Origin: Phytoseiulus persimilis
Lineage: Eukaryota; Arthropoda; Arachnida; Mesostigmata; Phytoseiidae
DNA length: 64,000 nt
NCBI GenBank assembly: GCA_037576195.1
Contig: CM075102.1
Span: 25,912,745 to 25,976,744 of the forward strand
Direction of reading: 5' to 3'
Each line of letters opens with the position of its first letter. Within the stretch, counting starts at the first letter, position 1. The position numbers and the translations under genes are program-made. Shown in pieces: positions 3,163 to 48,171 of the stretch. The notes beneath the pieces are model-generated. The model was not told where the DNA came from, ran no database searches, and saw only the letters and a list, made by a program, of their open reading frames with translations.

Positions 3163-5545
3163 ATGACGCTAACCGAGGAGAAAATCGACGAAGTGGGGAC
3201 AAGTGAGAAGATATTTTTCAAAGAAGGATCTCGCATTCAAGACGCGGAAATTCTGCTAGCTTCTCTCGAAGATTTCGTTGTGCGGAGGTTCAATCCGAAG
3301 CCCGACGGCTTCTTGAGCAAAGGTAGGGATCGAAAGCAGTTCATTTGATTTTTTGTGACGGAACTTGGCGTCGGACGCCTCAATCATTTTTGTGGCGTAG
3401 GAGTGTTCCAACTGAAGCTCGATGAACTTCGCTCGAAAGTGGATTCTCTCGAACCCTCATCGCAAGATCCCGACTTTCTGTGGATAGTGAGTATGCTCCT
3501 GGGTGTCAGGAGTCATCTCAGAACTTATTGTTGAACCGACTGAATACCTGATTGCCATTCCTCACCGCGCATTGATGTTACAAGTTCTCATGGGAAACTG
3601 TTTTATTTCCAGTGCGAGAAGATTACACTACTCATAAACTTGTGCCGCAACCTAGAAGGAGCCGTTCGCGGGAAAGTGGAGGGAGTTTCCGCCGACGAAG
3701 GGGTGGGAGCTTGCAACGACACCGATCAGTTGCTGGACTGCCTCCGGCTCGAAATGCGGCAGAGAGGAGAGGTTTCAGTTATATTGAAACCCGTTACGAA
3801 GAGGTTGACGAAAATTAAAGCGCATTATCTCGCAGAGGTATGATCCGGATAATTCAGATGAAGGGTCTTCTAAGATAGCGCGTCGTTCCCACTACGACCG
3901 CTGCAAAGGTGCGAAAATATAACGATGGCGGTCCGTTCTCAGTTGACAGGAAATTGGCGCCAACAGGTTCGTTGGCAGAAATCCGACTTCCCCCTAGCCC
4001 ACCGGCTAATTGTTTCTCCAGATGCTGGAAGAACTTTCGCCCTCCTCAACGGTTTGAGGAATTCCTCAACGCTGGCGACTGATCTATTGGCAGCTTTTGC
4101 GGAGAACATTGTCATGCCCGTCATCAACGACAAATGCCTCATCGTATTCTCGGAAAAAAACTCACTAATCAAACTGGAAGCAACCATGGTGGACAGGGCC
4201 GGGGAAGCCAAAGGTATCGTCGTAGACACCGTGAAGGATGCAGAAGCACATGCACATCGTCCAAGGGGTGCATGCATTACCAAATCGCAATCCTCAACCC
4301 TATAATGCAGATGTTATCACATTGACGTCTCATTCCAGTGGATCCTATTCACAATCTGCAAACGGTGTACAAGTTCATCAGTCGAACCCTCCTTCCCATA
4401 CTGACCCTCCAGGAAGATAGTCGCGAAATCAGCGCGACGCTCAACCTCTTGGGTCAACGAGCTCGCGAGGAGAATCCAGAAGCTATCGATGATCTCGCGA
4501 CGAATATTCATGCGGACCTTCCTCAAACAGCTAACTTACTGACAGGCTATGCCACTGAGGCCGAATCATCAAAAGAAGGTGTGGGCTGGAGTTCAATTAT
4601 GAAGGCCAATCGACCCACTCGCTCAGACCCCGGCGAATTCGAATTCCTCAATCTTGTAAATGTTGATTGTTATTCGAGACTCCATATCTTTCAGCTCTGC
4701 AGATCGTCTCTGAGATGGAGGAAATGATGCTCACAGCATTGGAACCAACAGAGGAGGCTGAAATCGCAAATCTCCCCAAGAACCTCATGAGAACTTACGT
4801 AGTCTCCTCATGGGTGCCATCCTTGGCTGACAGTATTCTTCGACTCAAACATGAATCCGTGCTCATGCCTGTCTTCTCCTGTCTCTTGCGTCATCTGACA
4901 GTGCTGGAGGCCGAAGCTCTGAGTGGCTCCTTTAAGGTTGCTGTTTTCCTGAACAACTGTATTTATCTCGCGAACCGTTGTAGTCTACATTGTCCGGTGC
5001 CGACGAACAGCATTATTATGCTGAAAGAAAAAGGGACATCGGTGTTCTTACGGTTCGTCAACGAGCTTAAAATGAGTGAAGTCTCGATGTCGCTTCCAGT
5101 TTCGACAGCGTTGAAACTGTTCCTGACGTACATGGCATCTCTTCAGGAAATGGAATCTGCGTGGAAACGCTCCCTCCCATTCGAGAATTATTCGAAAGCT
5201 ATGGGTCTTCTATTCAATTCATTCTCCACTAGCTTGGAGTCGTATATTTTCCAACAGAAATTCCTCACTGAGAACGAGGTAGTCCATCTGAAGTCGCTTC
5301 TGTTCCGCTCCGTGTCCATGGCTGAAGCGTGGCAGCGCGGTAATGAGCAAACGCTTCACGTCAGCGGGGCAAAGGCTGACCATCTCCTGCAACTCATGCA
5401 GATGACCCCCGACGACATAGCTCTTGCTTGGAAGTCTCGCTCGGGGCCGATCAGAACTGTGTTCACGGCAGATCAGGTTGCCTCTTTGGCCAAAGCACGA
5501 TTCGCACTCGAAGAGTTTGACAAACTGCACTCGGCACTGTTCTGA
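3163..5545 (+). CDS. Zw10: ZW10 kinetochore / RZZ and NRZ complex subunit, six exons
   Basis: Exons are 3163-3322, 3401-3486, 3613-3837, 3943-4213, 4339-4578 and 4695-5545. All introns are short GT-AG introns with continuous phase, and the product is 610 residues. ZW10 works in the Rod-Zw10-Zwilch complex, which recruits dynein and Mad1 to kinetochores, and in the NRZ complex for Golgi-to-ER tethering. The assignment rests on family-like blocks: NWRQQVRWQKSDF and LLNGLRNSSTLATDLL in the middle, NNCIYLANR and ENYSKAMGLLFNSF in exon 6, and the C-terminal LAWKSRSGPIRTVFTADQV, which parallels the human ending around ADGKGPLAAAFSSSEV. The start is the first ATG of the exon 1 frame. The protein is shorter than human ZW10 (about 780), mainly in the N-terminal and linker parts, so a small exon could have been missed. 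AATAAA follows 56 bp after the stop. Confidence 0.85.
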
Positions 5546-5807: not shown

Positions 5808-7415
5808 TCACCGCTTGCTGAGCGTGAAAGTTTTGTTCTCGTAAACGTGCACTGCATAGAATAAGACGAGGAGACTTATGGCGAAATGAGGAGTCAGCGT
5901 GAAGCGATCGGGGAACAACAGTTGGTTCAATCCTGAGTTCAGGAGATGGACGACGCAAGCGACTTGATACTTCACGACATTGTCCAGTTTCTTCACCAGC
6001 AGAGCCACGCAGATCCCGTGTACTGCTGCCGTGATCCAGGTGATGCCCAGCAGACCCCATATCGACCAAGGAGCCTCAGAAATAATTTCTGCAACAGAAA
6101 CGGAGGTTTACAACTCCCCAGAGTGTATTCTGGGTGAAAGCTGGTTATCTGAGTCGTTCGAGCTTGAGAGCCTTCACAATATTTTCGTCCCCATAAGATG
6201 TCAGTCAAGATTTTGTCGTTGTAGCGGGTGCCGCGAATTCTCATTCGTCGGAGAAGGCCAGTTCCTCGGTATGCCTAATCAGCTTCGGACCGTGATTCCG
6301 GTCGTTGTTGGACGATGGTGTGAAAGCTTGGTGTTTAACCTGTTTCCATTCACGGGCGACTCTCACTCCGCTGCGTTTACTTATAATTCAGTCGTTTACA
6401 ATGAGTTGTCCCCGGCTGCCGTGACTGTCAACGCGCGATTGTGCCCACAATAAAACGTTAATCCACATCAAGCCCTGTTCATCACGACGCGATCTCAACC
6501 TCAACGGCATCAAGTTTTCTGATATTAATGAATAAGTATCGGGCTCTGTCTCTGAAGTCGAGAATCTTCTATCTCGGGTCACGCAGATCAGCTTACATCT
6601 TCTGATAGCCCTCAGCGTTCTTTGTCCAAATCTTCGAGACTGTGTGCACTCCGAGCATGCATTGATTTATCACAGATACACAGACCTTTCCGGAAGACGA
6701 AGGAGGAGTAGACGAACGGCACTACCGCGAAACCAGCTCCACCGATGTACATTTGAAATTGCTGCTTCCAGATATTCGATTGCTGAGGGTTCTTGAAGAG
6801 CAGCTCGGTGTAAACAGCGGCACTCGCTGAAAGAACCGAATTCAGGAGAGCGAGCACGAAGCCGACCGTGAGACCGTGCGAAGCCCCCGCGCTCAGTTCT
6901 GGAAGCTGACTGATGCCTATGGCAAAGCACATGAGGAAAGCTCCAATCCACTGAGCTTCGCTTACGCTCCTCCTGAAGAAGACTTTATACAGCAACAGTG
7001 TGAGGGGAATCCTCGTCTGCACAAGGACCATCCACACCGCCGGCGTGACATACGCCAGCGAAAAGAAGAAAATGTTGTTTGTAATGGCGTAAACCATGCT
7101 CGGAAGAAGGAGTCTCCAGTTGAACGGCGTCCACGCCGACCCGTTGTGCGTCGTCACGTGCAGGAAGAAACACACCAGGGCTTTGCTGAGTTCGAGGAGC
7201 ACCACGAAGAGAGTCTGGTCCACGGGGAACTTGTCGTCATTGTAATAGCGGATGGCGTACGCGCCAACAACTTTCACGAGCTCACAAGACGCGATTAGAA
7301 CACAGAGCTTCACTGAAGTTTTGCTGGAGAGCGGTACCTGTCGTCCGATATTCAAAGACGGAGCCGGGTTCGGGATGTTGATTTTCGACTCCACCAACGG
7401 ATCCGCATCGTCCAT
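5808..7415 (-). CDS. SLC35A-type nucleotide-sugar transporter, two exons
   Basis: Exon 1 is 7415-6686 and exon 2 is 6088-5808. The 597-bp GT-AG intron is in phase 1, and the product is 336 residues. The protein is a multi-pass membrane protein with eight or more hydrophobic segments and short polar loops. Family features are the early FVVLLELSKALVCFFLH segment, NNIFFFSLAYVTPAVWMVLVQ, SASAAVYTELLFKN (the SSVYTE-like motif of the SLC35A group), and VALLVKKLDNVVKY near the end. These proteins exchange cytosolic nucleotide sugars for nucleoside monophosphate across the Golgi or ER membrane. Substrate cannot be read from sequence. The best match by eye is to the less-characterised members SLC35A4/A5 rather than the classic UDP-galactose or CMP-sialate carriers. 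The ATG at 7415 starts a hydrophilic cytosolic N-terminus (MDDADPLVESKINIPN). The gene converges on ZW10. Confidence 0.85.
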
Positions 7416-9902
7416 TTGGAGGGTGTGTGCGCCCTGACGGATTCTGCTGATCGCGGCCCTACAGAAGAACCAGGAGAAAGGGCAACCCGATGCAGGCGAG
7501 GAGGTTTCAGAGTAGAAGAGCAGTGCGCTCTGTCAAGTCACCGATGAACCTCTGGAACTGTATATCGTTGGATGGAACATTGATTTTTTCAGGGCTTCCT
7601 GCCCTGGGGGCCACATATACACGGCAATTAAACGCTACAGCGTCGACGAAGCCGTGAGGCACGGGGTTGCGTACCATCCCGGAGCATTTGCTTCTTTTCA
7701 TCGAAACAGCTCTTCTCACTCACATGGTGACTGAAGAGCGCTCGCTCCGGGAGACTGGTTTCATAATCCTGGAATCGATCATTTGAGCGCTGAAATCAAG
7801 TTGTTCCTTGCCTCACATATTGCTCACACCTCGGTAGCACAGATACGTCATCTCATCACGGGTCGAGCTGAGTGATCGCTCAAGGCGGTCAGATATCAGA
7901 ATCTGTGACAATATTAAGGTGAACACAGGCGACTCGACAGGCCATTGAGGTTCGGGGTGTTGAATAAGCATTCACCTCGTAAGGGGTGAGGATCACATCC
8001 ATTTCATCTCACCTCGAGAGCCATCGAGCGGTTCTGGGATTCAATCGAAGCCCAGCGATCAATTCCTTCAAACGGAGAATACGCAGTCTGATTCCCCTTG
8101 GTCCCTCCCTGAAACACTCATAATAATTCGTGCAAAGTTAGAAGGACCGAGTCAGGACCAGCAGAGCGAATGAGGACCTTCAGGAGTTCTCACCGCAAAT
8201 CTTCTTCTCCTCGCAGGATCAGTTTTTGCGGAAGCGAGAACTCGACGTAGCTATCGACTTGGCTATCAAAATCCTCCGTTGGTCAGAGGCATATCGTTCG
8301 TCACGATAGTTTACCGAGAATTCCATCTCTTGTTAGCTTTGAGACTTCCGCTGGCCACTGTCAGTTTTATGGCTTCCTCGGAAGCGATCTTCGAGATTTG
8401 AAACAGAACACGGTGCTTGCTGCTCGCAATCGAATCTGATGTAATTCCGAAAATGTCACCGACAACTCCTTGCTCTGTAGCCCTAAACTCCCGAACATTT
8501 CCGATGCTCACGATGGGGAGAACAACACGACTGAGGGACATGTGATCACGCGATTCAAGCCCCATATCTTCCGACTCACGAGGTTCTCCGACACAGCGCC
8601 AGATGATCCTTGGGTGAAGTGTGAACGAAGAGAATCGATCCCGAAACTCCGTTTGTTGGCGATGCTGCCTCGGCGAAGACGCGAAATCTGAGCCCTCCCG
8701 CTCACCCCTCTTGGAGTGGAGAACGTTCGAGGTCAGCCGGCGTTTCTTGCGCTCATGAAGTGTTCGTATGAGATTCGAATTCTTACAGGGAACTCTGCTT
8801 CGTTTCGCTTTCGACTGTTTACCATATCGCTTGGCCTAATAGACTGCGCTGTTTTGATACTCGGAACAATGATCCCATTCGAGGTTTCTCGGAGGGTGCA
8901 TCGTGGGTCTCGAATCTTCTAATGTTCCGCGTCTCCTCCTCAGGGAAACGGAGGGAGAATCGGGAAAGTATTGTCGGGAAAATCGGCGCAGACCTGTTAT
9001 CGCAGCTCCGTTCGGGGGTTCAAACATGCGTGGTGGTTTGATTAATCGCGTTAAGCTACAAATTAGCGGTCGTGTTCATGGTCGCGGCTCGAAAGCGAGG
9101 TGTCATCCTTAAATCCAACGAAATAGCCACCTTAGTCTCCACCCAAAATGGGAGTCACGACATCTGTTGCACTGCACCCTCGTTTGCTATTTATCGGTCG
9201 GTGGATAAGGGAAGGGCGTCGCGGGAAAGAGACCCTGAACACCGACGCGCCCTCTAGGACTCCCTGGAAGCCACGGAGGAGAACTATCCAGGAGCTCAGG
9301 CGCAAGATGGCTCCGAATTAAACTCGCCGTCCGCTCGAAGACCTGCTGTAGCGGTCGCCTGCTTTTCACCCTCATCCGCTCCGAAAGGTTGGTTGAACGG
9401 CCACTGCGTTCGCGCAAACATTCGTTTCCATATTCAGTGGAAGCCGAGAGCCCGAGTCATTGGCAGATGCGTACGCTGAGAGAATCGTTGAGCTCCGGGT
9501 CTTCTTTTGACAGAGGAAGCAACAGGGGCAGTTGAATTTTCAACAGGGTATCTCACAAAGCGGTCGGGCGCAGCTGTTGACATGGTGATCCGTTTGTTGC
9601 CGTTCCAGGAGAAGCACTATGACACTTGATTCAAAAGCTGCCCGGGTTGTCGAGCCTAAAACAAGCCATCCGTCCAAGCATCGCAGAGCGGGCAACTTTA
9701 TTGCCATCCAAGCACCAACAACCCACCCGAACTACAGCAAGACTCCTGACGAACAACAGAAACAATAACAATTTCTGACCCGGACGATCATAGCTTCTAG
9801 GCTTTAGTTTAATCGTAGCATAGAGCTTGTTGGTGGAGGCGTGTTGGCTTCTCCGGAGGATAAGCTGCAGGAAAACAACAAAAAGAAGAAACACCGTCCA
9901 AA
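7416..9902. other. Intergenic region between the divergent transporter and NALCN genes
   Basis: No gene could be established here. The two flanking genes point away from each other, so their promoters and the NALCN 5' untranslated region should lie in this 2.5 kb. One minus-strand open frame (8565-8311, with RVVLPIVSIGNV and KHRVLFQISKIASEEAI) has protein-like composition. I could not place it in a family or join it to another exon. I see no clear TATA box, repeat or RNA gene. Confidence 0.4.
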
Positions 9903-22826
<12,924 letters not shown>

Positions 22827-26883: not shown

Positions 26884-28253
26884 TTGGGTGGATGCAAAAG
26901 TTCTGGGCCCCTAATTTCAATCGCTCATAACTCCGCTCCCGGGAGCCGCAGAAAAATAATAAAATATAGGGAATGTGCGGAATCCAGTCGGCTTTCAGAT
27001 GGAATCAACCGCGATTTTGCGGTTCCGGCGAAACTAAGATTATGACTAGGACTGGGAGTTTGGCGCGGCATTCACGGTCGTGCCACGTGCGTGGGTTCCG
27101 CACCTTCTCCGCAGAATGCACGGATTCTTGAATATCTCGCGCAGTCAGGTCGATCACGAGGTAAACCTCGCATTCGGGAAGCTTCCTGAGCTCTTCGCTG
27201 CCAGCTATCACAGTAACTAGACATCTCACGGTATCAGCCATTCGACGTGATTGTAGGAAATGATAATCGTCGGAGAATTTCGAATTTACTCTTGTTGCAA
27301 TCAATCTTCAATATCGTCGTGCCGGTTCCGCCACCCCCGGTAGCGAAATACTTCAGAAGCCTGGCTCCCCTCCTCGTTCCTGTAGGCTGAAAGTCGGAGG
27401 CTACAACGCCTTGCAGGACTCACGGAGGCCGTGAATTCACCGTGCATTTCCCCGCGCCAAACTCCCAGCCCTAATTATGACCCCCTGGTTTCCCTTTAGA
27501 AACATGAGGTTCGTCAAAAAATAAGCGATTTCAAAAAAAATTGAGCATTTTGGCTACGGCGAAGCGGAGATATCGGGTCCCGAAGATTCAATCTTTTTGT
27601 GTTTTTTAGTGACCCTTTTTCCGCCAATTGAACGGTCCGATGGATGGGATGCGCTGGAAGTTCGTGAAAATTACAAAAAACTCCAGCCATCACCCCGGGA
27701 TGGCCAACCGAGATCAACTGATCCGAGCGCAATGCTCTACGAGTTCCTCAAGGGAATTCAGCGGCCGAGATGAAATGACTCTTCCGTCGCTGGAGAAGAC
27801 GAAAATGATTCCGACAATCCAACTCTGATTCTAAGGTCTCTTCTTGCAATGCGAACATTGATGAAAAGCGTTGAGAGGACGTTTCCAAGAGGCTTCTGAG
27901 AGTTTCCAAGGAAAATCCAGCGTATCCCATCCATGAGACGTTCAATTGGCGGAGAAAAGGTTAACAAAGAATCACGAAAAATCTAATCTTCGGGAGCCGC
28001 TATCTCCGCTTTGCCGTGGCCAAAATGCTCAATTATTTTTTTGAAACCGCTTATTTTTTGACGAACCTCATGTTTCTAAAGAGAAACCAGGCGTTCATAA
28101 TCTTAGTTTCGCCTGAACTGCAAAATCGCGATTGTCCGAATTTCGACCCTTTCAGGAAGATCGATGCTGTGAGCATCTATTCGACTCCATCTGAAAGCCG
28201 ACTGAATCCCGCTCATTCCGTATATCGGGCCCAGAACTTTTGAATCAACCCAA
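26884..28253. mobile_element. Foldback-type element with mariner-like ends, disrupted by a second element
   Basis: The left end TTGGGTGGATGCAAAAGTTC (26884) and the reverse complement of the right end, TTGGGTTGATTCAAAAGTTC (ends 28253), nearly match and resemble mariner ends. Both are flanked by TA. The inverted similarity runs far inward: AAACTAAGATTATGA, CCTGGTTT...TTTAGAAACATGAGG and CCGCCAATTGAACG all occur in both arms in opposite orientation. The arms reach roughly 350 bp each with a non-repeated centre near 27.7-27.9 kb. Without the internal insertion the unit is about 935 bp. No transposase motif is seen, so it is non-autonomous. Confidence 0.8.
27047..27473. mobile_element. hAT-like element nested in the foldback element, 8-bp target duplication
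   Basis: The left end TAGGACTGGGAGTTTGGCGC and the right end (reverse complement TAGGGCTGGGAGTTTGGCGC) differ at one base. The element is flanked on both sides by ATTATGAC (27039-27046 and 27474-27481), a perfect 8-bp duplication as made by hAT transposases. Removing it with one ATTATGAC copy restores the same sequence as the intact opposite arm of the host element (AACTAAGATTATGA followed by CCTGGTTT). The order of the two insertions is therefore certain. The 427-bp body encodes no recognisable transposase. Confidence 0.88.
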
Positions 28254-36539: not shown

Positions 36540-36719
36540 TCACGGGAGGGCGAGCTCGGGAGCCGCGAATACCTGAACCTGACGAATCACTGAATTTATC
36601 GATAGAGCCAGAGCTTCGTATGAGAACAATTGCTGCTTCCGCGAGGAGGCGACGATTGCGCTGACCACCACAAGAACCGCTGAAACTACAACGACCCACG
36701 AGCGGAGATGATGACACAT
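36540..36719 (-). CDS. Candidate small secreted protein or first exon
   Basis: From the ATG at 36719 the frame encodes a clear signal-peptide-like start (MCHHLRSWVVVVSAVLVVVS, cleavage probably after IVA). A short polar segment follows (RKQQLFSYEALALSINSVIR) with potential GT donors just after it (CAG|GTTCAG, CAG|GTATTC). It lies on the same strand as, and about 390 bp downstream of, the MIP precursor gene. It could be the first coding exon of another secreted peptide, or a chance frame. No family motif is visible. Confidence 0.3.
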   Translation of the reverse strand: MCHHLRSWVVVVSAVLVVVSAIVASSRKQQLFSYEALALSINSVIRQVQVFAAPELALP

Positions 36720-37104
36720 CGCAGCCCGTAGCAACCAGAAGAACAGAGACCTTTATTTGAGACACTTTCCGCTTCCGTCCGAGATGCTGAGAGTAGAGCG
36801 ATCAAATTCAACGACAAAGTCCCCCGCAAGCGACGAGAGGCAAACTATAGCGACTCAGATCTGGGATTCCTCTCGATGATTGTGAGTCCTCCTCACTCTG
36901 CGCGATGAACCTGACGCAAGTTAAGCTGGACACGGAAAAATAACCGACTCCTGATTCGACGACGATCTGTCGGATCAGCAGCGCACTGAGAATCATGCTC
37001 GATGGTGACTAACTCGGCGGCATGCCCGAATCAGCGGACACCTCCTTCCCGACCGTCCGCCGGTCCGTCCCGATGAGTTTTACGGCTCGCCGCTGACGAC
37101 GAGG

Positions 37105-37598
37105 TTATCCCCAATACCCCTTGAGGGAATTCCAGTTGTCAGCCTGCTTCCTGCTTCTTTCCATGGCTCCGTTGGAACCGAAGGGCCACCATTCGGTCAG
37201 ACTCCGCCAACGGCTCAGAGGGACCGGGACAATCGCCATAGCGGCAGACCTGGATGTTGGGAAGGAGTAAGTTCCCGGTTCAAACGAGTCCCGACCCGTT
37301 CCCCGTGATTGCGGAACGTCCGCCACTGGCCACTCACCGCTTGCCCCAATAGTTCCTCAGTCCGCTCCACGTGCGCATGTCGATCTCCCTGGCGGGAGGA
37401 CTGCGTCTGGCGGGGCTCCACACGGCTGTAAGGAAAGATGCTCGCGTGAATCTCGAACGAGCTCCCACGAACAATCTTCGTCGACGCGAACTCACGTTGG
37501 TCGTCGCCGTCGTATGTGTATGACCAGTTGATGGCATCTGTCTGATACACAAAGATCAAGAGGAGAACCAGAGACAGTTGCAGGAAACAGTGGGCCAT
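37105..37598 (-). CDS. Allatostatin-B / myoinhibitory peptide (MIP) precursor, three exons
   Basis: Exons are 37598-37496, 37425-37338 and 37249-37105, with introns of 70 and 88 bp. GT-AG borders and phases (1, then 2) are consistent, giving 111 residues. The start has a classic signal peptide (MAHCFLQLSLVLLLIFVYQT, cleaved near DA). The processed part holds RTWSGLRNYWGKR and, at the very C-terminus, RKQADNWNSLKGYWG followed by the stop. Both have two tryptophans six residues apart followed by an amidation glycine, the W(X6)W-amide signature of allatostatin-B/MIP. In insects and chelicerates these peptides inhibit gut muscle and juvenile hormone synthesis and act through the MIP/sex-peptide receptor. 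A third W(X6)W spacing (WRSLTEWW) lacks an amidation site. Most MIP precursors contain more copies, so this one is small. Family assignment is by motif only. Confidence 0.8.
37108..37146 (-). other. Predicted mature peptide MIP-2
   Basis: It follows an RK pair (37152-37147) and ends at the last glycine codon before TAA. The predicted product is QADNWNSLKGYW-amide, possibly with N-terminal pyroglutamate. It resembles insect MIPs such as those ending WNNLKGMW-amide. Confidence 0.65.
37343..37402 (-). other. Predicted mature peptide MIP-1
   Basis: It lies between a dibasic RR (37408-37403) and a GKR site that continues into exon 3. The predicted product is SPPAREIDMRTWSGLRNYW-amide. A shorter form beginning near the internal arginine (EIDMRTWSGLRNYW-amide) is also possible. 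Confidence 0.65.
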
Positions 37599-37599
37599 A

Positions 37600-40500
37600 T
37601 CCTGACTTCGGAGCGACATCTGGAACCAACACACACGGTTTCGTGACTCTCGAAGCGACCTCGCCCGCAAGATTCGAGTGGAAGCAAATGTCAGCTTCGA
37701 GAGGTTGTTACCTTTGCTGTTCGTCGCATCGTTGCTGGCTGATGCCCGAAGTGAAAGTGGGGTAGAGCACGCGGGGCTCATGGAGGCGGGAGAGGGTCCT
37801 GTTGTCGCCATCGTTTCGTGGTGATCCCGCAGTGCGGGTGTTTATCGAAAAAGGCTAATTAGGATTTTGAGAGAAATATCTTTATTAGGAGTAGATCCGC
37901 TCATTCCGGGAGATCGCATTTCTCCGATCTGATGCGTCACTGATACGCTGCTTCAAACTATTCAAACAAAGCCCCAGAGCTGGCGGCGTAAGTTTTGAGA
38001 GAAATCGGCATCGTACGTCTCTGGTTCGAGCAAGCATTCGAGACGACGGCGCAGGACCCTGACCGTTCCACTCGAACGCTTCTTTTCCCTGACGAAGCTC
38101 AGAATAGCAACTGTCATCCAGGGTATCCTGTCTGACGGAATCAATATCCTCAGTGTCATGATGCACTCAGCTTCGGATTTTATCGACGTCGGTGCATGTT
38201 CAGAAGTCGCGAGCCGGGTCCATTCGTCGGAAGCAAATCGCGTGGAAGAAAACTCGAGCATTTCAGCTTGGGAGAGGATGTATCGATTCCAGCGGAACCC
38301 TTGGAGAGCACAACGAAACCTTGCGACGGGCTCCATACATATAGCTCCAAGCTTGACGCACGAAAACGCTGTCTGAAGCTCTGCCCTGGGTGTGGGGCTC
38401 GAAGCTAATTAGAATGTTGCAGAGTTTCCGGTATCCGCAACTTCCCCACGCTTCGTGTCGAGCGAACGTGCGACCCTTGAAGGTTTGGGTTTCATAAAGC
38501 CGCGCTGGCGTGCGCGTGCCGGGACTTTTCGAGCACGAAATTCTCACTCACTCAGTCAAACTTTTAGGGGTTCCGCAATTATACAGCAAGCACACCGGAT
38601 ATTCGGCGCTAGCAGCTTCGCGGCGACAGAAAACAAACCACAATCAATGACCGCCCGCGAAAGTCCCGAGAAGGAATCAGGAGAGATGCACGATATCCTC
38701 GGAGAGGGAAAACACTCATGCGGAATCCGTTCGAAGAATTGTGTGAGTTCATTGATGTTCTTGATAGTTCTCGAGCATCGAGGGGCGAAGGGCGAGAGAG
38801 CGCAACAATCGACCAAACGATGACTGATAAACGAAATAATCCTTTCGTTCCGAGTTTATGGAGTGCCGAACGGCTCCCAAGCAGGACAACGGGGAAAGTT
38901 GGACTCTACCGACTGTCCTCATCAGAGACGCGTTTGGACTGAAGTCTCCTCGGTATCCGCTTGAAATCAGGATTCTCAACAGTTAACGAAACCGAGCACA
39001 GCGACTCTTATCCACTCTCTTGGAAGAAAAAGTTGGGAAAACAAGAAGCACGCGCAGAATTTATTGGGCGTGAAATGTGAGCAGAGGAAATCGCAATCCG
39101 CATTTTGTGTGAGACGAGCGCGTCACGATGCTGGGCGGTCGCTGGAAATCATGGCCTCTCTCTCTCTCGCATCTCGAAGTGAGTTTGTCGCTGACTGCGA
39201 CTGAGGTGTTCCTCGTGATGGCTGGCGTTGATAGGGGAGAAAAATATTCGCCAACCGCCGCAATTCCGAATTTCCATGTTGGCATAAACTTGTTGATGGT
39301 CTCATGAAATTTCTTATTCCTCATCGTCCGAGTCCACTTCTTGGACGAATGTTCCGCGAAAAGCTGCCAGTCTTCAAAGTAGGTGATTTACGGGAGCCGT
39401 TCGTGGCAACTCGGCCGCCACGAACCGACAAGGCAGCTCTGAGAAAGAGGCACGTTATATGAGCGTTTGCGAATCTGGCACCCTTCGGTGTTTGTGAGGA
39501 TGAGGGCCGAGATTTCGCCATCGGGTGCAACGGTAAGAGAACGCAGGGGGAGGAGAAAAGTGGACGCTGTTTTTGTTTTTTGTTGATGGTTGCGATTCCG
39601 GGCTTCTTGAATGAGCGCGGGAACCAATGATTCGGAATCCCCCTGCGGAGCGCCAAAACCCATACCCCATCGTTATGTAGGAGACTTGGACGAATGATTG
39701 GGCTCACGAACGATGCACTATGAACAGCATTGACAGGGGCATAAGAGATTAGAAGAGACCCGCTATTCCTCCGAGCGAATCTTCGCAGATGGACACCGTG
39801 ATTTCCCTGAAACTCTCACCAGTGAAACCGATCGCGACAGCTTTTTCTAGAGCTCTGCTGTTTGAATACGCGCCGCGCACGGTAACGTCTCGGAACATTC
39901 ATTGTGTAGTCTCGATTCCCGGAGGGTTCAGGAACCTTGTAAGTGAAAAAAACATGCGAACGGCAGCCGCACAAGAGCGAATATGTTGTTTGAATGCTGG
40001 CAGTATTTTTAATCAAATCGTTCCACCACAGTATTCAGTGTTGGGCACAAATCAGCGGCAGTGCATCCGAACCCGATGACGGGGTCGAATAGATGCCTGC
40101 AAACGACCGCAAAACAGAACGAGCAGCAAGCAGCAAAACAAGACGATAAGCGGAAAGGAAGAGAAAGAAGAGTTTTCTGTCGAGTTCTCAATGGCTATTG
40201 CCTCGGTCACGTTTACGAATTTATCAGAGGTGTCGGTGGGTATTCTTAGCGGTCGCTTGCCAGCCACCGAGCGAACAAGAGAGTCATGTAGACATTGAGC
40301 GTCCGCCCGCTCTGTCGTCCATGAGAGAAAATGGAAGAAGAGACGAGGACGCTCCATTCAAGAAAAAAGAAACTCCAACAACAGGCTTTCGTCGCATGGA
40401 AGCAGAAAATATAGAAAACGTCGGTAGAATCGGGAAGAACAAATCTCCATAGAAATTGCTTCATAGCAAACCGAAAAACAGACAGACGGACCAACTGACT

Positions 40501-43025: not shown

Positions 43026-44645
43026 AAGAGTTCAGCTTTCTCGAAGTTTCCGGAGCGAAAACTAAATGAGGGATACAAACGGGTGTTTGTAGATCGATAT
43101 CGGGGCTACTGATATTCATCTTCCTTAGAAGATGAGGCGTATGATGTGAATTCTGGGTGGTCCCCTCCATCACAGGAACCCACCGATGAAGTTACCCCGT
43201 GTGGACACATTTATCCTCGTGTCATGTTCTATTGGGCTTAACGCGACCCAAATGAGTTGGGCCAATAGCGGGCAGCTCGAAGGCGTCCCTTGTGAATAAT
43301 GGTGCCCTTGCCAGCGAAGCATCCCTAACAATATTCGAATCGATCAGGACAGCAAAGTTCCGAGGGCGAGTGCACGATCGTAGAGTATCGGGATTCGGAC
43401 TTCACTGGACGGGACTGGGATTCGAAAAAAAAAGTTGAACGTCTGTTTCTCCATCACTTTTTATCACTCAACTCGTCTCCGTGGGCTCCGGAACGTCAGA
43501 GACACATATAGAAGAGACCTTGCAAGGCTGTCATCACTCTGAGTATTCGGAGACCACGTCTTTCTACGGAATCCTTTCCGCCTCACACAATATATATTAC
43601 TCAGACACGGGCTTATCACGATGATTCGGGGAACCGGACATCGAGGAAAGCAAATGGAAATAAGTGCACGGTGTGGAGATGGGCTTCATTTCGGTTGGGG
43701 TGGGTAACCCCTCAATGGGTAGCGGATCTGTCATCGCTTCGCCTTTGTACGTTCGAACCACAGGCTGAGAGACAGACGGGCGAGTAGAAGAGGGACGCCG
43801 AAGAACTGAAAATCACTGTGAATTCGCCTCGGCGCACCAATCGGCAATCGCAGAAGAAACGAGAGAAGATGGCAGCCGACAGCGCCGTTTCACCTCGTTT
43901 GAAAAATCGAGACGAAAGTTCAGATCTAGGGTTAAACGCCATAAAACAGCGTACTGAAGAAAGATTCCGACGTTCAGGACAACAGAAAAATAGCGTCAAC
44001 CAGCAACGTTGCTTTCTTTTCAAGTCTTCCACCCGGTTCCCCTCTTTCTCGAACTTGTTGTCTTTGGCTACCAGCCCAGTGAATTAATAGTGAGCGGGCC
44101 CGTCATCACCACCGCATTCGCCGAACCAGAAGACAAGCATACGTTGCGGTGGTGAAGAAAGTGCCAAATATTCTTCTCGAATCCACCGTGGAGCACCACA
44201 CACGAGATGGAGTATTCTTCCCGAGAACTTCGAGGGCTGACAACTAACCTGATTTGTTTGAGTAAACCCGCTGATCGGATCAGTCGGTGTTCCCTGCGCA
44301 GACAGCGATTGTAACAATGACGCCCTGCTCGAGATTCTAGGTGGAGAGTTTCGCTTCCCTACGTGACACGACGAGCTAATGAGTGAACTTTGGGGATTGA
44401 CCGTCCCAGAAGAAAAACGGTCTATCATCTTTTATCAGGAAAACTTCGATCTCCTATGCGCGGTCTCGAGAGAACGAAAGATGGGCGTTTCACTCTCATC
44501 GTCGCCTTGTAGTTGCTGATGATGTAGTCGCTGTTGATGTGTGGTCGACCGACGGCGGGTCGCAAATAATAGCGAACTCATTGTATAGAATGATAAGCCC
44601 CTCATATTCTCTGAGGAGTGAAATCTTGGCATGATTAAAACCCGT

Positions 44646-45895: not shown

Positions 45896-47682
45896 TCAGT
45901 GGTCAGAGCTCGTTTGGAGCAGGTGTGGCGTCCCGGTGTCGTCGTACATCTCGTCTTCACTGATGACCATGTGGCTGACCACCCTATTGCGCGAGGTTTG
46001 CAGCGTACGCTCGACAGTCCGTGGTGGGCTGTCTCTGTCGTTTCCGGGGTCTATTCCAGGGAAGACGAATTCCACTCTTTGTTGAACGGGACTGACCACG
46101 CTGATCGGTCTTTGAGCCCTGTGGAGAGCATATGGGTGAAGAATTGTTTCTCGTGAACTCCTGCGGCCGCAACTGGGTTTTCGCGGAGTTTTCGAGATCG
46201 CTCCAAAACATTGAGACGGAATACGGCTCAATCGGAACTCACCCCGAGTTCTGCTGCTGTTTCTGCAGAAGTTCATGTTTGGGAAGCACGGGCGGGATGT
46301 AAAGGTCCGACTTGCTGCTTCTGGCTTTCCAGATCCGCTCCGACAACGAGAGTCTCCTCCGCTGGTTAACTGGACCTGTCAAGCTACCGTTGGACGCTCC
46401 AACCTGGTGCTGAGCATCTCGATCAAGGTGTCGCGGAGACTCCAAGTCGCTTGTTTGGTAACGAGCCGCGTTACTGGGATTCGAAAGTATTCTTAGTTCT
46501 CTCACTCGATCGCATGGGTTTCGAATTCGGATTCAACACCTCTTCGGGACCATTACGAGAGATGCAGGTAATTTTGGAATGAAATAGAACCTTACGCATT
46601 AATGTTGAAGTGCACAACCTGCCTCCGTCGCTGGCTTGTTGTCCTGTTCTTTTTGCAGTAGCGTCGATAGACCAGAAACGAGCCGGGTACACCGATCACG
46701 AAGAACACAACAACAACACCAAGGATCATGAAGAAGGTCCTCCTGTTTGAAATGTTGTATTAAATATCCGCAGCCGGAATGAGCGTGGCGAGTTCCATTC
46801 GGATTTCGGGCATTCGGGTCAATGAAGTCGCGCTTCCCCGACGCGCGCTTCTCGACCCGAACTTCAGGCTACTTTTGGTCCTGACCGTCTCGAAAAGCAG
46901 GCCACGACTCCTGATCCCGAGCCTACTCTTCCTTTCATTGGCCACGAGTATCGTCCCCTGGAACACTCACCCAGCGGTCCCCTTATCCGCCACGATGGAC
47001 GCTTTGAATTCCCGAACTTTTTTCAATTTCAACGCATCGAGTCTGACTGCCATAGTGAACAGCCGGTTCGGCATGATTCGATAGTTCTTCATTTCATATT
47101 TGTTGAGGTGCTCCGATAGCATTGAAGAACTTTTCGACAATGGCTTGACGTTTGGGTTTTCGTCGCGTCTCGAGTATCTGAAGGTTCCGAGTTGTTCTCC
47201 TCCCTGGTCATAAGCCCCTCCGATCCTGTCAGCCGTGTTCTGCCTCGGATGCACTCGGACGGAGTCCATGATCTGAAGCCGAGCGGTTCCTCTTTCAAGC
47301 ATTGTCTGTCCTATTCGTGTGTTGAAGTAGTTCGTCCTAAATTCTAGTCACTCACCACAACGGTGTTGTTGTCCTGTTTGCTATCCAGATAGTAGGACAG
47401 ATTCAACATAGCATAGTCCCGCGTATATACGTTGATCATGCAGTATGACTCATGCGATTCCTCTATCGTGAACTCCTCGCCCACAGTGACTATTTTCAGG
47501 TTCGAGAACTGCCCATCCGTCTTATCCAAGCCATCAGAATTGATGAGAAGGGGCTCATCGATTCTACCACACTCGAACGCGCAGCAATCCGTGATGAGGT
47601 CTAGAACTTCGCTGTGATGAGCCGCTCCTGAATAAATGAACAAAGTCCACAATGCACATATTACTGGGAACTTTTTGTACAT
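45896..47682 (-). CDS. Type I single-pass membrane protein, orphan, five exons
   Basis: Exons are 47682-47356, 47305-46971, 46742-46596, 46473-46243 and 46160-45896. Every junction is GT-AG and the phases (0, 2, 2, 2) agree, giving 434 residues. The start MYKKFPVICALWTLFIYSGA is a signal peptide. The extracellular part (about 22-222) has four cysteines (DCCAFEC and SYCMIN) and N-glycosylation sites (NLS, NNT), and no domain that I recognise. Exon 3 encodes one membrane span (about 224-246, FFMILGVVVVFFVIGV) and a stop-transfer (YRRYCKKNR). The cytosolic part (about 247-434) is basic, then polar with an acidic C-terminus (ISEDEMYDDTGTPH), including a DEMYDD tyrosine that could be a phosphorylation site. 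An ATG eight codons upstream (47706) is possible but would precede the signal sequence. It could be a receptor or adhesion protein. Confidence 0.7.
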
Positions 47683-48171
47683 TTTCGATTCTCGCACACT
47701 TTGCACTATCTCATCGGATCCTCATAGAACTGTGTCAATTCATGCATGGTTCTCCGAAATGTCCACTTTAAAACTTCATGATCAACTCCCTGCTTTTGCA
47801 ACTTTCACTGGCAGACGACAGTCGATAGTTCCCTCTACAACGCTTATCCGAGGATCAACCCACCCGAAAACGAGAATTCCCTAGATTGCTCGACGCTGTC
47901 GCCAGCAAGATTAGCGCCGCGGCTTTTGCCGAACACAGCCCGGCGCCGTGGATCGATTCTGCTATTGTCGCCGGGAGTTACGTAATCACAAGAATGGGTT
48001 ACGGTTTGAGCTCGAGATAGTTCTTCGTGTTGACAGATTCACAATACGATTTTCGATCCGATCGAAAAACTTCCCCGCTCCGAAAGGTTCACGAAGTTTT
48101 ACTCCTAATCCAGACACATGTCGATTGTTCGAGATCGCATGGATGGTATATGCCAGGCCCCGGGATTTACG

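Follow-up and report, generated by a model that had tools for sequence, protein, structure and literature searches.

Allatostatin-B (AST-B)/MIP precursors have been described with differing numbers of peptides: five in Drosophila (PMC2575521), six MIP copies in Tribolium (PMC3016957), 13 and 9 AST-B sequences in two crabs (PMC3749230), and eleven mature peptides in Platynereis (PMC7270403). At the MIP/sex-peptide receptor both tryptophans of the ligand matter, the C-terminal one most (PMC7270403). MIP transcripts have been reported from the tick Ixodes scapularis (PMC4116169, PMC7828734), and MIP has been associated with the salivary glands and hindgut of hard ticks (PMC7693490). In the spider Parasteatoda, the amplification of AST-B is reported to have failed (PMC6736302); thus, its presence cannot be taken for granted throughout the arachnids. 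A non-exhaustive literature search returned no MIP precursor from a mite.

We analyzed a 64,000-nt stretch of DNA (the window), the minus strand of which very probably carries an AST-B/MIP precursor gene, with two peptide copies, of a small-genome arthropod that is most likely a mite (Table 1). This identity had been proposed in the preliminary description and is supported by the reading frame, the leader, the splice donors, and the peptide motifs, which match AST-B/MIP precursors as described in PMC7270403 and PMC3749230. The three predicted exons, when joined, gave 336 nt in frame with a sole, terminal stop codon and a product of 111 aa, beginning with MAHCFLQLSLVLLLIFVYQTDA and ending with QADNWNSLKGYWG before the stop. 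The rebuilt transcript reproduced exactly the coordinates of the three-exon join and the intron phases 1 and 2 given in the preliminary description.

Table 1. Features of the predicted AST-B/MIP precursor gene and of the NALCN gene in the window.
Feature	Position	Strand	Details
Coding exon 1: ATG, hydrophobic leader MAHCFLQLSLVLLLIFVYQTDA, propeptide start	37496..37598	-	103 nt
Intron 1	37426..37495	-	70 nt, phase 1, GTGAGT...TTCCTTACAG, end TTACAG
Coding exon 2: first MIP, WSGLRNYW-G-KR	37338..37425	-	88 nt
Intron 2	37250..37337	-	88 nt, phase 2, GTGAGT...CAACATCCAG, end ATCCAG
Coding exon 3: linker with WRSLTEWW (37209-37186), RK-QADNWNSLKGYW-G, TAA	37105..37249	-	145 nt
Possible polyadenylation signal AATAAA	36752..36757	-	~350 nt past the stop; consensus match only
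Alternative upstream ATG, in frame	37617..37619	-	adds MSLRSQD before M
NALCN sodium leak channel gene, several exons	12233-20476	+	PDB matches

The locus had been said not to be visible as one long open frame. An ATG-led ORF of 198 aa (37811-37215) does run in one frame across exon 1, intron 1, exon 2, and intron 2 into exon 3, and it contains the leader; since it leaves the first MIP out of frame, the claim was right. The best ten-residue hydrophobicity of the leader was equalled in 5 of the 883 ATG-led 25-codon open frames of the window, a count that presumably includes the leader's own frame and the overlapping upstream ATG. This hydrophobicity, together with a small residue seen by eye at the likely cleavage position, agrees with the signal peptide postulated earlier. 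Some 240 nt upstream of the start, at 37841-37876, lies an imperfect palindrome with overlapping arms of 22 nt (77% complementary). RNA folding across the gene region was unremarkable (z of -0.90). A repeat search around the gene yielded two short two-copy families and no sign of recent exon duplication.

Two peptides with exactly six residues between the tryptophans and an amidation glycine had been predicted, and both were confirmed in the joined frame: WSGLRNYW (37369), followed by G and KR, and WNSLKGYW (37134), located within QADNWNSLKGYW, preceded by RK and followed by G and the stop codon. Regarding the dibasic sites, KR after the first copy and RK before the second were present, while none was found directly before the first copy; the N-terminus of the first peptide is therefore uncertain. 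The nearest dibasic site upstream of it, RR, would give a peptide of 19 residues, and single R residues lie closer.

The similarity of the peptides to known MIPs was evaluated against eight published cores from krill (PMC3749230), tick (PMC7693490), beetle (PMC3016957), and cockroach (PMC13302288). WNSLKGYW had a mean BLOSUM62 score of 10.6, inside the leave-one-out range of the published cores (6.0-15.6), and 1 of 2159 null motifs scored as well. WSGLRNYW, judged by its sequence, is moderately similar to these cores: its mean score of 4.1 was below that range and was reached by 50 of the 2159 null motifs. The two copies scored 14 against each other. The second copy conforms to the core W-x-x-L/F-x-G-x-W, whereas the first has N where all eight cores have G; in both copies Y precedes the last W, a residue found at that place in none of the eight. 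Among individual peptides, the Ixodes ricinus MIP ASDWNRLSGMW (an antigen, in non-amidated form) is likewise of W(X6)W type and has the core W-N-x-L-x-G-x-W in common with QADNWNSLKGYW, but differs in its N-terminus and in other residues (PMC7693490). With krill AST-B, e.g., GGADTDWNSFRGSW-amide, the pattern W-(N/S/G)-x-(L/F)-(R/K)-G-x-W-amide is shared; krill has five AST-B forms versus two here, and the residue preceding the last W is A or S in krill and Y here (PMC3749230).

A third, non-amidated W(X6)W motif, WRSLTEWW, had also been listed and was present at 37209, where PFG, and no glycine directly, follows its last W. Its score was -2.5 against the published cores, a value matched by 499 of 2159 null motifs, and 5.5 against its two sister copies, matched by 25 of 1290. 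From its sequence, it is possibly a decayed MIP copy; the two null comparisons lean different ways. An unrelated motif of the window, WASFRLGW at 43680, scored 4.6 against the published cores and lacks a glycine after it.

The strict motif, W(X6)WG followed by a dibasic site or a stop codon, was observed twice, against an expectation of 0.05 per window that derives from a total of 10 in 200 null windows, which were third-order Markov (Markov-3) sequences modelled on the same window. Both occurrences are on the same strand, 235 nt apart; a same-strand strict pair within 500 nt was found in 0 of the 200 Markov windows. Stop-free W(X6)W was present 30 times in the six frames, and W(X6)WG without the rule on the tail was observed 3 times versus 1.17 expected per window. 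Since bare W(X6)W and W(X6)WG are common, the rarity consists in the tail after the motif and in the pairing. The sole other W(X6)WG of the window, at 21928, lies inside a tandem-repeat tract; hence, a further MIP copy is absent from the window. Elsewhere, at about 27008-28240, two open frames on opposite strands contained ...IILVSPEPQNR and IILVSPELQNR, respectively, suggesting an inverted dispersed repeat.

GTRAGT had a density of 0.41 per kb per strand in the window and was found on the minus strand of the 36600-38400 region only at 37495 and 37337, i.e., at the two proposed donors. Splice variants were enumerated with GT-AG introns of 50-250 nt and with both peptides kept in frame: 102 in-frame two-intron models were obtained, 12 using both GTRAGT donors and 90 using one. 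All 12 both-donor models retain both peptides. Their intron 1 acceptors were 37426 (CTTTCCTTACAG) and 37441 (GATTCACGCGAG), the former being clearly better by eye; their intron 2 acceptors were 37250 (CCCAACATCCAG), 37214 (GGTCCCTCTGAG), 37202, 37157, 37154, and 37151, among which 37250 looks best by eye and 37214 is a fair rival. The proposed intron 2 acceptor is a less certain point of the gene model than the remainder.

The local splice style was learned from the NALCN gene, the introns of which were placed by eye from PDB alignments. Six homology-placed introns were 84-160 nt long, all of them GT-AG, so short introns are normal in this region; five of the six, when joined, gave a single open frame without a stop. 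The donor was GTGAGT in two introns, as at both candidate donors, and other than GTRAGT in four; the acceptor was CAG in five and AAG in one; the downstream exon started with G in all six. Two features of the MIP model stand against this style: intron 1 falls below the NALCN length range, and the first base of exon 2 is C. In Metaseiulus occidentalis, the mean intron length of 647 nt, which is inflated by long introns, exceeds that of the introns placed here (PMC5467014). The G+C content of the window was 50.4%; in a table of ten arachnids, the only similar value was the 52% of Metaseiulus occidentalis, with 30-45% for the other nine (PMC5467014). A phytoseiid mite may tentatively be guessed as the source.

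Other features of the window included a nucleotide-sugar transporter (6615-7532, minus strand; Pfam PF04142, E 3e-17) and a ZW10-like protein C-terminal domain in one long open frame (4667-5542, plus strand; PF22766, E 2e-10). Along with NALCN and the presence of introns, these two proteins point to an animal. At 47347-47721 (minus strand), an open frame that contains cysteines and a leader-like stretch, KFPVICALWTLFIYSGAA..., had no Pfam match and possibly encodes a secreted protein.

Several other readings of the locus were considered. When exons are short and splice sites can be chosen freely, many joins are possible, as the 102 models illustrate, and a gene-like product might thus have been assembled by chance from short open frames. 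Such an origin would have to account for two strict motifs so close together, a pairing absent from every null window, for both GTRAGT donors sitting precisely at the needed positions, and for a leader hydrophobicity matched by just 5 of 883 frames; we consider it scarcely credible. Alternatively, the locus could be a MIP pseudogene of recent decay, the functional gene being located at another site. This would be consistent with the presence of just two copies and with the degenerate look of WRSLTEWW, but the start, leader, donors, acceptors, frame, amidation glycines, and stop are all intact, which makes this reading very improbable.

A MIP gene with another exon structure deserves more weight, although we still regard it as unlikely; being a MIP gene too, it does not exclude the preferred explanation. 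The structure could differ by the acceptor 37441 (an exon 15 nt longer), by the ATG at 37619, by an extra copy-bearing exon, or, above all, by the acceptor 37214. The latter has a pyrimidine stretch, gives an intron 2 of 124 nt that falls within the NALCN range, leaves the peptides unchanged, and removes SAAMAIVPVPLS from the linker; 37202, 37157, 37154, and 37151 are in frame as well, and one of the six NALCN acceptors is itself not CAG. By eye, however, the proposed acceptors TTACAG and ATCCAG contrast with the GAG ends at 37441, 37214, and 37202, and the acceptors 37157-37151 are purine-rich. An extra copy was absent from the window, with the only other W(X6)WG being that in the tandem repeats.

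The 111-aa product had no match in Pfam or PDB. As the AST-B family is described as being without a Pfam or InterPro entry (PMC3749230), the empty Pfam result fits the preferred reading, an AST-B/MIP precursor. Collections of phages, prokaryote genomes, and viruses yielded no relative when searched with the product, as would be anticipated if the gene is from an animal, and there were no Rfam matches and no tRNA. Short peptide words of the product were absent from the full-text literature searched, which excluded supplements, databases, and subscription journals.

What our analysis shows directly is the sequence, its reading frame, that splice signals are present, that the motifs are rare, and that they resemble published MIPs; we infer splicing, cleavage, amidation, receptor, physiology (for ticks, that of the salivary gland and hindgut), and the kind of animal. 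In the proposed pathway, the leader would take the precursor into the secretory pathway, and convertase cleavage would occur at the KR that follows the first peptide and at the RK ahead of the second. The C-terminal glycine thus exposed on each peptide would be converted to the amide, yielding ...TWSGLRNYW-amide, with its uncertain N-terminus, and QADNWNSLKGYW-amide, possibly with a pyroglutamate. The calculated [M+H]+ is 1480.697 for QADNWNSLKGYW-amide, or 1463.670 in the pyroglutamate form, and 1181.585, 1825.880, or 2334.156 for the first peptide, depending on which of three candidate N-termini is used. Both peptides would be released by neurons and may act on a GPCR of the MIP/sex-peptide type via their two tryptophans. 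When intron 2 is left unspliced, the frame reads WSGLRNYWGKR-stop, i.e., a stop codon immediately follows the KR of that peptide. Intron 2 might conceivably serve as a dose-and-identity switch, its retention giving TWSGLRNYW only and its splicing giving both peptides, an idea that we rate as improbable; if it were true, a minimal two-copy MIP gene would select its ligand set by splicing.

The locus represents a well-known peptide family, and its low copy number appears to be the only unusual point. The unusually low number pointed out in the preliminary description holds in comparison with Drosophila, Tribolium, the two crabs, and Platynereis, all of them species outside the mites. The Drosophila precursor belongs to the same family and has peptides of a similar size range (9-13 residues in Drosophila), with five copies versus two here (PMC2575521). 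Varroa and Metaseiulus have a natalisin precursor with two mature peptides, as here, but of an unrelated family (PGFVGAR-amide) (PMC4730192); two copies may therefore be ordinary in mites. The locus provides a compact MIP gene for which exons are proposed, and its two predicted ligands are candidates for work with receptors and mass spectrometry. Should the two-copy state turn out to be general among mites with small genomes, it would point to peptide-copy loss alongside genome compaction; otherwise, the finding is a routine annotation of a gene of the kind that a simple ORF search misses.
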